The notes beneath the pieces are model-generated. The model ran no database searches and was not told the DNA's origin. It was given only the letters and a program-made list of their open reading frames with translations. Shown in pieces: positions 13,611 to 38,482 of a DNA stretch of 64,000 nt. Source of the DNA: Paenibacillus graminis (GTDB lineage: Bacteria; Bacillota; Bacilli; Paenibacillales; Paenibacillaceae); assembly GCF_000758705.1 (NCBI RefSeq), contig NZ_CP009287.1:2046001-2110000 (forward strand), given 5' to 3'. Made by a program: the position numbers and the translations under genes. Each line of letters opens with the position of its first letter. Position 1 is the first letter of the stretch.

Positions 13611-13632
13611 AGCTTTAAATAAGGACGAAGCA

Positions 13633-13672
13633 CGTCCCGTACTCATGGATTCATGGGTGCGGGACTTTTTTG
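13633..13672 (+). terminator. Terminator in the leader of the nuclease-like gene
   Basis: GTCCCG..CATG stem paired with CATG..CGGGAC (13634-13665) followed by TTTTTT. It sits between a strong promoter and the coding start at 13699, so it could act as an attenuator or end a short RNA of about 55 nt. Confidence 0.7.
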
Positions 13673-13698
13673 CGTCCATGGGAAGGGGAGTGCACCTT

Positions 13699-14373
13699 AT
13701 GGGATTTCAAGAAGCGTACAGCACATGGATCAAGTATCACATAGGCCGGAGAAAAGGAGAAAGGAGGGACCGGCTGGAACGGGGGCATGGTCATGGAGAG
13801 CGTATGTTTTTGGAGCAGGTATGGTGGCCTTTGATGGGATCGCTACAGAATCTTCACCCCGAATATGAGGTCGCAGATTGGAGAGGTAGACCTTATTATG
13901 TGGATTTGGTCTGGAAGCCGGGACAGGTCAAATTCGCGTTCGAAGTGAAGGGCTACGGCCCGCATGTGCAGAATATGGACCGCACCCGTTACCGGCAGGA
14001 GCTCAACCGGGAAACATTTCTGCAAATTGCCGGCTATCGGGTAGTTTCAATTCCCTATGACGATCTCGAAGGTAGTCCGCAGCTTACAATTTCGCTCATT
14101 AGGTCCCTAGTGGCTCCTTTTATAGGCGGGATCAATGCGGTGGGGCAATTTACCCGTCTGGAGCGGGAGATGATCCGGCTAGCTGTGTCCCGGGATGGAA
14201 TGATCCGCCCGGTTGACCTGGGCAAGGAGCTTGGGATTAACCTGCGGACGGTTCGAAATACGCTGCAGGCTCTTTGTGCGAAGGGGAGACTCAGACCTGT
14301 GCCTACTAAAAGCGGCAGTAGAGTTTATCGCTATGAGGTGATTTATTCATTCTCGGACGACCAGCTATGGTAA
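13699..14373 (+). CDS. PD-(D/E)xK nuclease-like domain fused to winged helix
   Basis: 224 aa from ATG at 13699, with GGAAGGGGAG eight bases upstream; an ATG at 13645 lies inside the terminator hairpin. Residues 35-122 have the layout of a restriction-endonuclease-like (DUF559/Vsr-like) fold: Glu39, Asp69 in YYVDLVW, E82-V-K84 on the next strand, and a helix-strand RETFLQIAGYRVVSI. Residues 140-220 form a winged helix (LGKELGINLRTVRNTLQAL). A DNA-binding and possibly DNA-cleaving protein is inferred. It is followed directly by the first 51-bp hairpin array. Family name not certain. Confidence 0.72.
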   Translation: MGFQEAYSTWIKYHIGRRKGERRDRLERGHGHGERMFLEQVWWPLMGSLQNLHPEYEVADWRGRPYYVDLVWKPGQVKFAFEVKGYGPHVQNMDRTRYRQELNRETFLQIAGYRVVSIPYDDLEGSPQLTISLIRSLVAPFIGGINAVGQFTRLEREMIRLAVSRDGMIRPVDLGKELGINLRTVRNTLQALCAKGRLRPVPTKSGSRVYRYEVIYSFSDDQLW

Positions 14374-14402: not shown

Positions 14403-15053
14403 AACAACGGCAGAAACGCCGTTGTTGGGGCGCCTGAGGCCGGGCAGCCGGGAAACAACGGCAGAAATGCCGTTGTTGAAGCGCCTGCGGCCGGGGAGCC
14501 GGGAAACAACGGCAGAAACGCCGTTGTTGGGGCGCCTGTGGGCGGGTAGCCGGGAAACAACGGCAGAAATGCCGTTGTTGAAGCGCCTGCGGCCGGGGAA
14601 CCCGGAAACAACGGCAGAAACGCCGTTGTTGAAGCGCCCGCGGCCGGGGAACCCGGAAACAACGGCAGAAATGCCGTTGTTGAAGCGCCTGCGGCCGGGG
14701 AACCCGGAAACAACGGCAGAAATGCCGTTGTTGGGGCGCCTGCGGCCGGGTAGCCGGGAAACAACGGCAGAAATGCCGTTGTTGAAGCGCCCGCGGCCGG
14801 GTAGCCGGGAAACAACGGCAGAAATGCCGTTGTTGAAGCGCCCGCGGCCGGGTAGCCGGGAAACAACGGCAGAAATGCCGTTGTTGAAGCGCCCGCGGCC
14901 GGGGAACCCGGAAACAACGGCAGAAATGCCGTTGTTGAAGCGCCCGCGGCCGGGGAACCCGGAAACAACGGCAGAAATGCCGTTGTTGGGGCGCCTGCGG
15001 CCGGGGAACCCGGAAACAACGGCAGAAATGCCGTTGTTGGGGCGCCTGCCCAT
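14403..15053. repeat. 51-bp hairpin tandem array A, 13 units
   Basis: Thirteen units at an exact 51-bp period (AACAACGG at 14403, 14454, 14505 ... 15015) with no indels. Each unit carries a perfect 10-bp stem, AACAACGGCA paired with TGCCGTTGTT, closed mostly by a GAAA tetraloop, then a GC-rich part with CGCGGCCG. Because 51 is divisible by 3, long open frames cross the array in several frames; none has a ribosome site, and I treat them as artefacts. Confidence 0.95.
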
Positions 15054-18634: not shown

Positions 18635-18742
18635 TCCTATCCCTCCTAAATTTAAGGTCTCTTACCAGAATTGTACCATAATCTATTGCAGACATGCCTC
18701 TGTCTTCTGCGGAGAGCGTTGCAGAAACGACACAACGGCGTG

Positions 18743-18866
18743 GTGACGAGTGAGAGAGGTTAGGTGACGAGTGAGAGATGTTTGGTGATCAGTAGAAAGG
18801 TTTGGTGATCAGTAGAAAGGTTAGGTTATCAGTGAGAGAGGTTAGGTGACCAGTGAGAGAAAAAGG
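18743..18866. repeat. Imperfect tandem repeat of about 20-21 bp, 6 units
   Basis: Units of the type GTGACGAGTGAGAGAGGTTA with variants (TGATCAGTAGAAAGG), six in a row. The rest of the spacer to 19034 shows no gene. Confidence 0.75.
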
Positions 18867-33129: not shown

Positions 33130-33276
33130 GCATACAGAGTGTTTGCTGAATGAGCCCGGACATAGCAGTCACGGGAGTGAACCTCGATAATGATGCGGAT
33201 GAAAAAGTCTATATGATGCTGATGAGAGTACTATGAACCGAATCAACAAATAATACTGCTGAGTAAGTCTCTAAAT

Positions 33277-33402
33277 AGTGCTGCCGATAGCACCGACAGT
33301 GCTGCTGATAGCTCCGATAGTGCTGCTGATAGCTCCGATAGTGCTGCTGATAGCACCGACAGTGCTGCCGATAGCTCCGATAGTGCTGCTGATAGGCGCA
33401 TT
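33277..33402. repeat. 21-bp tandem repeat, 6 units
   Basis: Units starting AGTGCTG at 33277, 33298, 33319, 33340, 33361 and 33382, typically AGTGCTGCTGATAGCTCCGAT. Two unit variants alternate (GCTCCGAT and GCACCGAC). The rest of the spacer from 33130 to 33505 shows no gene. Confidence 0.85.
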
Positions 33403-33509
33403 CGAAATGCTGTCCGCAGATGGGACTGGAATTGCTGAACAAACTAGGGGTTGCCTTTCGCCCGGGAATTTGCTAACATACGATGTAACTTAATAATTCT
33501 TTTTTAGTT

Positions 33510-33645
33510 TTCTAGGGTTCCGCGGCGCATTTAGGCTGGCAGGTCCGAGGGAAAACGCACGGAGTAATAATTCCGTGTCAACACGGAGGGATAAAAGCCC
33601 GGGAGGTATCGTCATTGGACGATGGCCTTCCGGGCTTATTTGTTT
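33510..33645 (+). ncRNA. ykkC/guanidine-I riboswitch with terminator
   Basis: The ykkC leader hallmarks are in order: TAGGGTTCCG, GGCTGGCAGGTCCGAGGG, ACGGAG, ACACGGAGGGATAAAAGCCCGGGAGG. The last part pairs with GGCCTTCCGGGCTT (about 33624-33638) to form the terminator, which ends in a short TTATTTG tract. Guanidine binding keeps the downstream genes on. The next two genes are SMR exporters, the usual partners of this riboswitch class, which supports the call strongly. Confidence 0.92.
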
Positions 33646-34330: not shown

Positions 34331-34378
34331 TTTGCTTGAAGGCCATGAGGTGGATATGCTGGCGTTTTGCAGGGTGCG

Positions 34379-34688
34379 GAAGCGGACGACAATTGCAGAG
34401 TGTAATAGGGAAGTGAACCACGATTGCAGTGGGCAACAGGGAAGCGGACGACGATTGCAGAGTGTAATAGGGAAGCGGACGACGATTGCAGAGTGTAATA
34501 GGGAAGCGGACGACGATTGCAGAGTGTAATAGGGAAGTGAACCACGATTGCAGGGGGCAACAGGGAAGCGGACGACGATTGCAGAGTGTAATAGGGAAGC
34601 GATTGACGATTGCAGGGGGTAGCAGGGAAGCGAACCACGATTGCAGAGTGTAATAGGGAAGCGAATGACGATTGCAGAGTGTAATAGG
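34379..34688. repeat. 31-bp tandem repeat, 10 units
   Basis: Ten units at a strict 31-bp period (GAAGCGG at 34379, 34410 ... 34658). Each holds ACGATTGCAG and ends GTAATAGG or GCAACAGG. Two unit types are mixed (GCGGACGACG and GTGAACCACG). Non-coding. Confidence 0.9.
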
Positions 34689-34697
34689 GGATCCAAG

Positions 34698-34825
34698 TTG
34701 GATTTTCTCCACTTAAATTTACCCAAAAGCTATCTGCAGGAGGGATTAGTGGGAAAAAGTAAACTTAAATTACACGAATTCCCCCGAAAAGGGGAGGATG
34801 GGTCGATTTAGTTATCCTTTTTCTA
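34698..34825. repeat. Dispersed GGAAAAAG/CTTTTTCC box repeat, locus 3, left part
   Basis: Boxes TTCTCCACTTAAATTTAC, GTGGGAAAAAGTAAACTTAA and TTAGTTATCCTTTTTC. The last is cut by the insertion sequence at 34826 and resumes at 36045 (TATCCTTTTTCC), followed by AAGTTCACTTTTTCC at about 36095. Confidence 0.75.
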
Positions 34826-36044
34826 CGGCTGTTGATTAACCAAAAAAATGTAGAAAAAAGGCCGCCGATTCGGTAAAGTGTTTGTACCCCTACAAACATC
34901 CGAGACGAGGCGACCTCATGAAAAAGTCTACTTCATTATCGAACATTCTGCAATCGGTGATTCCCCCGGAACGAATGAAGCCAATCCTGGAAGAACTGGG
35001 ATATATCGATGTTGCTAGAAAATTTACCGTGTACGATTTGTTCTTATTTCTTAGTGAAGCGGCCTTCCAGCAATGGCGCGGGTACCGCGATGGCGAGCAG
35101 CAAATGGCTCATTACGGTCAACGAGCGGTGGACCACTCTACCCTCTCCAAAAAAGCGAAACAGGTTCCGTTTGCACTCTTCAAGCGTTTGCTGGCAATCA
35201 TGATTGAGCTGTGCAATCGCAAAACGAAGCGTTCCCTTGGCATCCCAAAAGAACTGCTTGTCGTCGACTCCACTCAAGTCACGGTGGGGATGGGCCGACT
35301 TCCTTGGGCTCCCATTCGCGGGCAAAAATCCGGGATTAAACTCCATGTCGCAATCATAGCGGACCGGAGGGAATTGCATCGGGTAACGGAGACCACAGGA
35401 AATGAGCATGATCTCAACAGTTGTGCGGAGCTCATCGATCCGACACGCATTCTGGTCGCGATCGTTCTTACGGAAAACACAAGTTTTTCGACGCTTACGA
35501 CATGCAAATCGAGCGTCAGTATTTTGTGATCCGGCTTCGGGACAACACGACCTTTCATGATCCCGTTCCTAGAATACGTAAGAAACCGTTCACGGGAAGC
35601 ATTGAACAAGATCTGACCTGCCAGCTTGGAAAAAACAAGGCCCTTTCCGAGCGACGTTTCGAGTGGTGATCTTGCGAGATCCGAAAGGCAACCCCGTCAT
35701 CTTAGCAACGAATTTGCACTGGCATTCGCCTGAGAAAATCGCGGAGATTTATCGAAAACGTTGGCAGATCGAAGTATTTTTTCGCTGGATTAAGCAACAA
35801 CTGAATGTTCCAAGATTATTTGGGACCACGCCAAATGCGGTATATGGACAGCTCTATACGGCTTTATTGGTGTACGTTCTGCTCAAATATCTGTTTGACC
35901 AAGGGAATGCTTCGGTCCATAGCACCGCAAAACTAACATTCGCCGAATTCGATCGGTTATTTCGCCTACAATCTTTGCCGCTCGAATGGAGGGTGTTCCT
36001 ATCCTGTAACTTAAATTTCCTAAATATAGGTTAATCAACAGTCG
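34826..36044 (+). mobile_element. IS4-family insertion sequence, 1219 bp
   Basis: 16-bp terminal inverted repeats CGGCTGTTGATTAACC (34826-34841) and its near-complement at 36029-36044 (15 of 16). Target duplication TATCCTTTTTCTA (34813-34825) / TATCCTTTTTCCA (36045-36057), 12 of 13 identical. The long duplication and Y-R-E-K transposase fit the IS4 family. Its transposase has two frameshifts, so this copy cannot move by itself. Confidence 0.92.
34918..36034 (+). pseudogene. IS4-family transposase, two frameshifts
   Basis: Begins MKKSTSLSNIL at 34918 (GAGG site). First DDE Asp is in LLVVDSTQVTV. A missing G near 35459 breaks the frame: reading GCG-GAT-CGT restores ADRSYGKHKFFDAYD. A missing base near 35655 breaks it again: TTC-CGA restores RRFRVVILRDPKGN. 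The last part carries the Y-x2-R-x3-E-x6-K signature (IYRKRWQIEVFFRWIK). Restoring one base at each site gives exactly 373 codons. The N-terminal part alone cannot be catalytic. Confidence 0.92.
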
Positions 36045-36110
36045 TATCCTTTTTCCAACTAACGCTTGCGGGGAGCGGGATAAGCGAGAATTAAGTTCAC
36101 TTTTTCCAAT
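36045..36110. repeat. Dispersed GGAAAAAG/CTTTTTCC box repeat, locus 3, right part
   Basis: Continuation of locus 3 beyond the insertion sequence: TATCCTTTTTCCAACTAACGC then GAATTAAGTTCACTTTTTCC. Joined to 34698-34825 it restores the four-box layout. Confidence 0.7.
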
Positions 36111-36170
36111 AAGGTTTGCTATGGAGGATAGCTGGTTGCCAGCTTCACTTACAGTTTGCTCCAGTTCGCT

Positions 36171-36425
36171 AGAATTACAACAGTTCGCTACGGTTCACTC
36201 TACACCCTAGAATTACAACAGTTCGCTACGGTTCACTCTAGCACCCTAGAATTACAACAGTTCGCTACGGTTCACTCTAGTGCTCTAGAATTACAACAGT
36301 TCGCTACGATTCACTCTAGTGCTCTAGAATTACAACAGTTTGCAACGGTTGGCTCCAGTTCGCTAGAATTACAACAGTTCCCTACAGTTCGCTACAGTGC
36401 TCTAGAGTTTCAACAATTCCCATAA
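36171..36425. repeat. 39-bp tandem repeat, 7 units
   Basis: AGAATTACAACAG at 36171, 36209, 36248, 36287, 36326 and 36365, with a diverged last unit at 36404 (period 39, one 38). Units contain TTCGCTACGGTTCACTC. It begins 60 bp after the box repeat. Non-coding. Confidence 0.85.
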
Positions 36426-36777: not shown

Positions 36778-37641
36778 ATGAACACCAATATATCCGGTAC
36801 TATCGCACTCAAGGACGGAACTGCTGTGACAAAAATGGGCCAGGGAACCTGGAACATGGGCGACAGCACAGCCACGCGTGATGAGGAAATAGCTGCTCTC
36901 AGGCTGGGGGTGGAGCTGGGCATGAATCTCATTGATACCGCCGAAATGTATGGGGACGGCCGTTCCGAAGAAATGGTGGGTGAAGCCATCCGGGGCATCC
37001 GGGATCAGGTTTTTCTCGTCTCCAAGGTGCACCCGGATAATGCCGGTCTGGACCGGATTACCCGCAGCTGTGAAGAAAGTCTGAAGCGTCTGGGAACGGA
37101 TCATCTGGACTTGTACCTCCTGCACTGGCGGGGGAAAATCCCGCTGGAAGAGACGGTTAAGGGAATGGAACAGCTCGTAGCCTCCGGTAAAATCGCCCGC
37201 TGGGGCGTATCCAACCTCGATACCGGGGATATGAAGGAGCTGCTGCGCATTCCTGGCGGAGACCGCTGTGCTGTAAATCAGGTCCTCTATCATCTCGGCT
37301 CACGGGGCATTGAGCATGAGCTGCTGCCATGGCAGCGTACCCACAAGATCCCTGTAATGGCTTACTCGCCGCTGGCCCAGGCAGGCACGCTCCGCAAAGG
37401 GTTGGCGGAGAATGAGACCGTACAGGAGATAGCACAGAAACATGGGGCAACCCCGTTGCAGATCATGCTGGCCTGGAGCATCCGGGAAGATGATGTAATT
37501 GCCATCCCCAAAGCATCGAGCCGCGAGCATGTCACCGAAAACGCCGCAGCCGCGAAGATCCGGCTGAGCGAAGAGGAATGCTGGAAGCTTGATGATGCTT
37601 TTCCGCAGCCGGCCTGGAAGGTACCGCTGGATATGATTTGA
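36778..37641 (+). CDS. Aldo/keto reductase
   Basis: 287 aa from ATG 36778 (GGGAG nine bases upstream; a TTG two codons earlier is less likely). Full AKR tetrad: Asp53, Tyr58 (DTAEMYGDG), Lys83 (VSKVHP), His116 (LYLLHWRG). NADPH-site segment IPKASSREHVTENAAA near the C terminus. A cytoplasmic NADPH-dependent carbonyl reductase of the DkgA-like or plant-type bacterial group; substrate unknown. Single gene closed by a strong terminator. Confidence 0.92.
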   Translation: MNTNISGTIALKDGTAVTKMGQGTWNMGDSTATRDEEIAALRLGVELGMNLIDTAEMYGDGRSEEMVGEAIRGIRDQVFLVSKVHPDNAGLDRITRSCEESLKRLGTDHLDLYLLHWRGKIPLEETVKGMEQLVASGKIARWGVSNLDTGDMKELLRIPGGDRCAVNQVLYHLGSRGIEHELLPWQRTHKIPVMAYSPLAQAGTLRKGLAENETVQEIAQKHGATPLQIMLAWSIREDDVIAIPKASSREHVTENAAAAKIRLSEEECWKLDDAFPQPAWKVPLDMI

Positions 37642-37654
37642 GTTTGGTTGTGCA

Positions 37655-37690
37655 GAGGCTGTCCCGGGAGTTTCGGGACAGCCTTTTTTG
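37655..37690 (+). terminator. Terminator after aldo/keto reductase
   Basis: AGGCTGTCCCG paired with CGGGACAGCCT, loop GGAGTTT, then TTTTTT. Confidence 0.9.
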
Positions 37691-37707
37691 CTTGGGGCGG
37701 GAGGGGA

Positions 37708-38482
37708 AACAACGGCAAAAGTGCCGTTGTTAAGCGTGCCGCGGCCGGAAAAGCTGGAAACAACGGCAAAAGTGCCGTTGTAAAGCACGCCGCGGCCGGA
37801 AAAGCTGGAAACAACGGCAAAAGCGCCGTTGTTGAGCGCACCGCGGCCGGAAAAGCTGGAAACAACGGCAAAAGCGCCGTTGTTGAGCGCACCGCGGCCG
37901 GAAAAGCTGGAAACAACGGCAAAAGCGCCGTTGTTGAGCGCGCCGCGGCCGGAAAAGCTGAAACAACGGCAAAAGTGCCGTTGTAAAGCACTCCGCGGCC
38001 GGAAAAGCTGGAAACAACAGCAAAAGCGCCGTTGTTGAGCACGCCGCGGCCGGAAAAGCTGGAAACAACGGCAAAAGTGCCGTTGTTAAGCACGCCGCGG
38101 CCGGAAAAGCTGGAAACAACGGCAAAAGCGCCGTTGTTGAGCGCGCCGCGGCCGGAAAAGCTGAAACAACGGCAAAAGTGCCGTTGTTAAGCGCGCCGCG
38201 GCCGGAAAAGCTGGAAACAACGGCAAAAGTGCCGTTGTTAAGCGCACCGCGGCCGGAAAAGCTGGAAACAACGGCAAAAGTTCCGTTGTTGAGCGCACCG
38301 CGGCCGGAAAAGCTGGAAACAACGGCAAAAGTGCCGTTGTTAAGCGCGCCGCGGCCGGAAAAGGAGGAAACAACGGTAAAAGTGCCGTTGTTAAGCGCGC
38401 CGCGGCCGGAAAAGCTGGAAACAACGGCAAAAGTGCCGTTGTTGAGCGCACCGCGGCCGGAAAAGGCGGAAACAACGGCTGG
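37708..38482. repeat. 51-bp hairpin tandem array B, 16 units
   Basis: AACAACGG at 37708, 37759, 37810, 37861, 37912, 37962, 38013, 38064, 38115, 38165, 38216, 38267, 38318, 38369, 38420 and 38471. The period is 51 with two units of 50 where one G is lost (GCTGAAAC). Stem AACAACGGC(A) / (T)GCCGTTGTT with an AAAG or AAAAGC loop, then CCGCGGCCGG. Same period and layout as array A, with a different linker (GGAAAAGCT). The last unit runs into the GH1 remnant. Confidence 0.95.

Follow-up and report, generated by a model that had tools for sequence, protein, structure and literature searches.

The window, by which is meant the whole stretch of 64,000 nucleotides analysed here (positions 2046001-2110000 of the 7.17-Mb chromosome of Paenibacillus graminis), contains two tandem arrays of hairpin units, A and B, together with a predicted nuclease gene directly in front of array A and an aldo/keto reductase gene in front of array B (Table 1). 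An earlier note on this DNA had described array B as a second array of the 51-bp family found in array A, and TRF (12.7 copies in A and 15.2 in B), a pattern scan and shuffled sequences all bear this description out. With up to three mismatches, the pattern of this hairpin family, H1, has 55 matches in the window (both strands of the near-palindrome being counted), all of them within arrays A and B, and no match in 100 dinucleotide shuffles.

Table 1. Features of the window, with positions counted from its first nucleotide
Feature	Position	Strand	Description	Basis
Terminator-like hairpin and T-run	13620-13680		Immediately upstream of the probable start of the nuclease gene
Predicted PD-(D/E)XK (DUF559-like) nuclease gene	13699-14373	+	C-terminal winged helix	Family alignment, Pfam scans of members, homologs
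Array A	14403-15049	+	13 units of H1 at period 51, beginning 29 bp past the stop codon of the predicted nuclease gene	TRF, pattern scan, sequence
Tandem array	18742-18860		Period 21 bp	TRF
Tandem array	33275-33395		Period 21 (63)	TRF
Guanidine-I riboswitch	33501-33607		Upstream of two short open frames (130 and about 105 aa)	Rfam
Tandem array	34378-34689		Period 31	TRF
TTAGTTACCCTTTTTCCACTT-like modules	34700-34830		About 50 bp apart
DDE transposase (PF01609)	34882-36034		Two separate frames; probably broken
TTAGTTACCCTTTTTCCACTT-like modules	36037-36160		About 50 bp apart
Tandem array	36169-36419		Period 39; intergenic stretch adjoining the transposase	TRF
Aldo/keto reductase gene	36778-37641	+	Upstream of array B; served to locate the orthologous site in 10 other genomes	PF00248
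Intrinsic terminator-like hairpin and T-run	37657-37689	+	Between the aldo/keto reductase gene and array B	Read by eye; conserved in relatives
Array B	37705-38479	+	15 complete H1 hairpin units, period 51, then the left arm of a 16th hairpin	TRF, pattern scan, sequence, end position

Each unit of array B consists of a 24-bp hairpin, AACAACGGC-AAAAG(T/C)-GCCGTTGTT, and a 27-bp linker, and the 15 hairpins are spaced at 51 bp apart from two spacings of 50. Loops and linkers are array-specific, as had been claimed: the loop reads GAAA then T or C in array A and AAAG then T or C in array B, and the linkers of the two arrays are unalike. The claim that A and B carry an identical segment holds only in so far as the segment is shared, because it mostly reads TGCGGCCGG in A but CGCGGCCGG in B. 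Units are more alike within an array than between arrays, with mean identities of 0.927 (A-A), 0.938 (B-B) and 0.727 (A-B), and among the 279 units of 31 H1 arrays 267 have their nearest neighbour in their own array; over the same 31 arrays identity within versus between arrays is 0.87 versus 0.47 for linkers and 0.96 versus 0.91 for hairpins. Array B stops inside half a hairpin, and array ends in general seem to fall mostly near whole hairpins, but no firm conclusion is drawn from this because the breakpoint scan was itself anchored on hairpins.

Coding arrays were considered, the period being a multiple of three and the open frames long, and were ruled out by spacings of 50, 52 and 39 bp which break the frame or the pattern. 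The linkers are repeated within an array rather than unique, as the spacers of a CRISPR array would be, and an Rfam scan of the window matched the guanidine-I riboswitch and nothing on the arrays. A phage or plasmid origin of the system was likewise rejected: array B has no DNA match in phages or plasmids, the nuclease protein has none in phages or IMG/VR, and the one plasmid match of the protein is to a Paenibacillus megaplasmid at 53.6%.

The earlier note had proposed looking for a linked nuclease gene, and the gene directly in front of array A is predicted to be one. Its frame is open from 13645, and the adopted start, at a conserved MGF, was chosen from the family alignment. Residues invariant in 32 aligned members include E39, H71, P72, E73, D78, W79, D87, E100, H107, D112, R113, N121 and R122, with K102 nearly invariant. 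This pattern predicts a D-(X)12-E-x-K core of the PD-(D/E)XK nuclease type, and a winged helix is predicted behind it; in a subgroup of 43-44% identity the catalytic lysine of E-x-K is methionine. At E values up to 0.1, 17 of the 32 members match the DUF559 profile, 15 match MTES_1575 and 18 match RAP, Pfam entries which we take to belong to the PD-(D/E)XK clan. The window protein itself matches no nuclease profile in the Pfam scans, with no DUF559 or MTES_1575 match at E 0.1 and RAP only at E 0.06, and the curated cut-off of DUF559 (PF04480) is passed by two of six members scanned singly (L308, L315). A profile search of the PDB found relatives for the C-terminal winged helix only, and an AlphaFold model built from three close sequences has a mean pLDDT of 49.7, low in the nuclease region. 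In NCBIfam and PHROGs the window protein is without a match and other members have weak ones, while PADLOC gave only weak matches to CARF models (E 0.044). The gene has four matches in the source genome and matches in 79 of 100 genus members and in 217 of 296 sampled genomes of the order (40 of 48 genera), compared with six of 398 in a phylum-wide sample, where five of the six are in the same family. The terminator-like leader of the gene has a similar counterpart before the homolog of Paenibacillus sp. S150 (L278) and a less similar one before L283, and these leader hairpins suggest control by attenuation.

The gene and a tandem array are linked. At 32 of 44 homolog loci, which include the window gene and over-represent close relatives because they were drawn from the best-scoring matches, an array with a period of 51 bp (31 loci) or 52 bp (one locus) starts within a range of -10 to +120 bp around the stop codon, compared with 8 of 1620 called genes in 100 control pieces of the chromosome. 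Of the other 12 loci, two have an assembly gap and remnants of units (L274, L298), and six have no more than one or two units or reach the end of a contig (L275, L293, L297, L301, L304, L333). One has decayed traces only (L300), two are genes of a 45-46% subgroup (L282, L283), and the last is L334, where an array is present and the scan had mis-set the stop codon. Outside the 44, arrays were found at all six loci of at least 57% identity (L309, L314, L323, L325, L326, L327), and in the 43-44% subgroup (L311, L322) the gene lies between two direct arrays of one other 51-bp unit. No 51-bp array was seen at 11 of 11 further genes of 45-49% identity or at one of 40%, so that the 45-49% subgroup as a whole has an array at 0 of 13 genes. 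The same gene-array arrangement recurs in two genomes of another family of the order (L336, L337).

The hairpins are species-specific and share one period. H1 arrays accompany genes of the H1 type and H2 arrays those of the H2 type, H2 being a second family (ATGAGAGGTANAANTACCTCTGAT) with a stem unlike that of H1 and the same period and kind of loop, and genes of other species carry other hairpins; an H2-type paralog in the source genome (chromosome positions 2027694-2028407, 64% identity, about 18 kb left of the window) has an H2 array behind it. Stems found behind the gene include GGC/GCC, GGT/ACC, GGG/CCC, TGC/GCA and TGT/ACA; judged from the sequences, they differ between species while pairing and the period of 51 are kept. 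The apex A-NAAN-T was recovered by script from 22 of the 33 consensus units, and 19 of the 33 fold better than their shuffles by more than 1 SD (mean z -1.63), with z at 0 or above in eight. A protein of at least 82% identity and H1 in bulk (93-304 forward matches, the next genome having 13) occur in the same six of 100 genus members (G000, G029, G047, G052, G054 and G073), a coincidence which may reflect a single clade only. The GH3 gene behind array A remains a neighbour of the nuclease gene in at least G047 and G052.

The arrays are dispersed over the chromosome. The search of the whole genome with one unit, proposed in the earlier note with the remark that its reading would suffer if the two arrays were the only copies, gave 396 forward and 400 reverse matches at up to three mismatches, or roughly 400 near-palindromic H1 units, a count that exceeds the hundred intergenic copies taken as a mark of REP palindromes. 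A sample consisting of 100 evenly spread 20-kb pieces, 20 targeted pieces and the window holds 380 units of H1 (up to three mismatches) or H2 (up to four), grouped in 46 clusters that all lie between called genes. The clusters were not sampled at random, because the targeted pieces were picked where searches had listed matches, and their number is a minimum for the chromosome, further H2 places being known outside the sampled pieces. H1 and H2 share clusters at L230, L217, L236, L245 and L253, and three H2 units on the opposite strand at each of L245 and L253 were put down to near-palindromic loops that the scan scores wrongly. From one genome to another, H1 and H2 vary independently, as in G054 (174 forward H1 matches, no H2) and G076 (H2 with 32 and 11 matches, no H1), and H1 and H2 are without a match in 78 and 81 of 100 genus members. 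At L237 an H1 array passes straight into a short tandem run of CACGGCCCTCCT (after about 7050). The claim that a common unit had reached separate sites and was then homogenised locally is supported, and the sites number many more than two. The earlier reading as a whole was right about the shared unit and the local homogenisation, but it contained neither the strand rule described next, nor the unrelated hairpins of period 51, nor the enzyme family.

The orientation of the arrays is set by replication. The GC skew of the sampled pieces changes sign between 3.60 and 3.65 Mb, being positive before, with an exception at 286 kb, and negative after, and in 46 of 46 clusters, the strand of a cluster being that of the majority of its units, the A-rich loop lies on the strand that reads with the movement of the fork; clusters of one or two units obey the same rule. 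Genes were taken from a simple codon-score caller, which sometimes calls ORFs inside arrays. The 43 clusters with both neighbours known lie in co-directional gaps (19), convergent gaps (18), one divergent gap (2) and between two genes that both face against the cluster (4). They represent 42 distinct gaps, 38 of them with two well-scoring neighbours of at least 100 aa (18, 15, 1 and 4 in the same order), and the 482 background gaps of at least 250 bp, in which the array gaps are included, number 233, 81, 114 and 54. An orientation set by transcription is ruled out, because all four clusters between two genes that both face against them and the 18 in convergent gaps also follow the fork.

The same counts bear on the possibility that an array is a regulatory or decoy partner of the nuclease, for example a transcript or set of binding sites that restrains the protein as in a defence or toxin-antitoxin module, with the dispersed arrays as extra binding sites. 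Such a partnership would suit an array directly behind the gene, a protein with a winged helix, an upstream gene that points along with the cluster in 38 of 44 cases and units more than half of which (19 of 33) fold better than shuffles, but it would not lead one to expect that clusters between two genes that face against them and in convergent gaps follow replication, the PADLOC matches are confined to the weak CARF ones, and about 400 copies exceed what local control needs. We consider it very unlikely.

Other genomes and a third hairpin family agree with the fork-direction rule, with rare exceptions. When orientation was scored against GC skew over 8-kb loci, 73 in all, P. jilunlii agreed at 31 of 33 loci, P. 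helianthi at 5 of 5, HW567 at 22 of 26, Paenibacillus sp. S150 at 5 of 8 and P. macquariensis at 1 of 1; five further stretches, of 78, are single hairpins outside Paenibacillus, of which two agree, and were left out. Five of the nine disagreements lie below an absolute skew of 0.02 and two more below 0.03; the remaining two are an S150 locus with a skew of 0.031 and, at 5920 kb in HW567, one of 0.12. Two HW567 arrays stand against the local skew, and the HW567 locus at 616 kb, scored as agreeing, has a second cluster of three units on the opposite strand. By strand blocks only, G047 has 43 '+' matches at 0.45-3.26 Mb and 16 '-' matches at 4.34-7.56 Mb, and the third family (GAGAGGGATAAATCCCTCTGAT), present in six of eight genomes searched, forms two strand blocks in all six; in G085 its '+' match at 1.70 Mb adjoins '-' matches at 1.715 Mb. 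Among the matches listed for G052, which reach 3.04 Mb, those as far as 1.62 Mb are '-' and those beyond, beginning at 2.19 Mb, are '+'. The single exception is a unit within a '-' array whose loop, but not whose linker, is inverted in place, and this inversion suggests that the hairpin forms in vivo.

Families turn over at orthologous sites. At the site behind the aldo/keto reductase gene, where the source genome (G000) has array B, G047 has one decayed H1 unit and six H2 units, G029 an H2 array with an assembly gap, G059 a different 51-bp family (18.6 copies), G073 a different, TTTTTCC-type repeat, and G052 a group II intron (Rfam RF02003) behind the same terminator, and no array was seen there in G026, G054, G006, G076 or G009. 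At seven further orthologous sites the family or the copy number in G047 or G052 is not that of G000; at one of them the place taken in G000 by eight H2 units, set between two H1 units, is occupied in G052 by eight H1 units. It is from such differences between species that we infer the unit to be mobile. Because the intron of G052 sits behind the same terminator, the array B site appears to be a general landing place; group II introns otherwise differ in that the arrays appear to encode no reverse transcriptase. Insertion targeted to terminators was rejected, since a terminator precedes 14 of 35 arrays (first 300 nt scanned) and 141 of 407 control gaps (first 150 nt), which is no enrichment.

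The oriented arrangement has a parallel in KOPS and SRS, and the arrays might be polar chromosome signals of this kind, or sites for a replication-related protein, whose orientation is under selection. The agreement with the replichores in all 46 clusters and in several relatives would follow directly, but close relatives carry different families, H1 and H2 are each without a match in most genus members, and families are gained, lost and swapped at orthologous sites with turnover of the sequence itself. We regard this explanation as highly improbable.

A further account dispenses with an enzyme altogether: the arrays would be satellite DNA whose 51-bp hairpin repeats grow by replication slippage, the survivors being those with the A-rich-loop strand as lagging-strand template, and the nuclease gene would merely be a frequent neighbour. 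Hairpin slippage is expected to give strand asymmetry, and the strong local homogenisation, the recurrence of arrays at the same sites in related species and the presence of H1 and H2 units (13 and 28 matches) in G026, which has only a 45% homolog, all fit. Slippage should, however, hardly select in clusters of one or two units, which nevertheless follow the strand rule; unrelated hairpins share the period of 51; and the arrays behind 32 of 44 homologs, as opposed to 8 of 1620 control genes, consist of different hairpins. Satellite growth alone is in our view unlikely.

To our knowledge, the enzymes so far found as cognate partners of dispersed hairpin repeats are HUH transposases, as in the REP-RAYT systems. 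PMC2817692 describes REPs as short high-copy intergenic palindromes, with a cognate gene beside copies of its own repeat and gene and repeat changing together. The likeness of the present arrays to REP, BIME and REPIN elements with their RAYT (TnpA-REP) gene lies in the high-copy intergenic palindromes and in the gene next to its own repeat. Membership of this class fails on the enzyme, which is not a Y1 HUH transposase (the window gene has no PF01797 match), on the arrangement, which is a direct 51-bp tandem downstream of the gene (on both sides in the 43-44% subgroup) rather than an inverted pair of repeats flanking it, and on the head motif, because no constant GTAG/GGAG-type head is present and, by eye, the sequence before the hairpin varies between arrays; the orientation that follows replication is a further difference. 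According to PMC6006769, IS608 and ISDra2 of the IS200/IS605 family target the lagging-strand template, and by analogy hairpin recognition combined with use of that template would give a replication-set orientation like that seen here, but no Y1 transposase is linked to the arrays. A Y1 or IS200-type driver was rejected: G000 has a single PF01797 gene, at 3.21 Mb, the 56 of 100 genus members that have one have it elsewhere and unrelated to arrays, the match in the array-rich G029 is degenerate with five in-frame stops, and the H2-bearing G076 and G006 have none. DUF559 and REase_MTES_1575 proteins resemble the family in the conserved core and in the profile matches described above, and differ in that the present family adds a winged helix and the linkage to 51-bp arrays, with the window protein below detection for both profiles.

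The reading that we favour, with a probability of roughly 0.55, is that these elements form a replication-coupled hairpin-repeat system of Paenibacillales, in which a nuclease gene is accompanied by 51-bp hairpin arrays whose units are spread by a non-HUH nuclease by way of the lagging-strand template. Its locus would consist of the predicted PD-(D/E)XK nuclease-winged-helix gene followed by 51-bp tandem units, mostly with a purine-rich apex (stem-A-NAAN-T-stem). The nuclease would recognise its cognate hairpin folded out of single-stranded DNA, mainly on the lagging-strand template, and cut there; units would be copied or inserted in the sole orientation which that strand allows, and the arrays would then grow and homogenise in 51-bp steps through slippage or recombination. 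In related species the gene would keep a single locus while its units disperse; RAYT genes behave in this way towards REPs, but the enzyme here is unrelated to theirs. Against this reading stand the low confidence of the structure model in the nuclease region, the absence of a nuclease-profile match for the window protein and the DUF559 cut-off passed by only two of six members. The 45-49% subgroup without 51-bp arrays, the subgroup that has lost the E-x-K lysine, the two HW567 arrays against local skew and the eight of 33 units with z of 0 or above also weigh against it. The hairpin arrays and their predicted partner look like an undescribed mobile-repeat system. That they represent a new class of bacterial mobile repeat, in which 51-nt hairpins are spread at the single-stranded DNA of the fork by a PD-(D/E)XK-winged-helix enzyme, each lineage having its own hairpin, and which would be an analogue of RAYT-REP of independent origin in Paenibacillales, is a more tentative proposal to which we give slightly less than even odds.

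If the favoured reading is true, a partner of nuclease fold together with hairpins that change in sequence at a fixed period of 51 bp would provide a natural series for the study of how DNA hairpins are read and how tandem arrays are born, and an explanation would be at hand for the unannotated intergenic repeats that form a large class in Paenibacillales, given how widely the gene family occurs in the order. The strand rule provides a sharp and testable link between the spread of a repeat and the replication fork. A search of the open PMC library found no paper on these arrays or on the pairing of gene and array, and the word Paenibacillus is absent from the main text of PMC3733652, PMC2817692 and PMC6006769; subscription papers and preprints lay outside the search, and the system is not claimed to be unpublished.

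The window also holds a third type of intergenic repeat, the TTAGTTACCCTTTTTCCACTT-like modules of Table 1, which recur at L202, L216, L200, L242 and L150. A word of this repeat, CCTTTTTCCACTT, has 32 forward and 13 reverse copies, a weaker strand bias, and because similar words lie behind some nuclease homologs of 45-49% identity (L320, L321), the repeat may be that of the 45-49% subgroup. The DDE transposase between the two groups of modules is considered probably broken because its sequence falls in two separate frames, and the two small frames behind the guanidine-I riboswitch look, by eye, like a small exporter pair.
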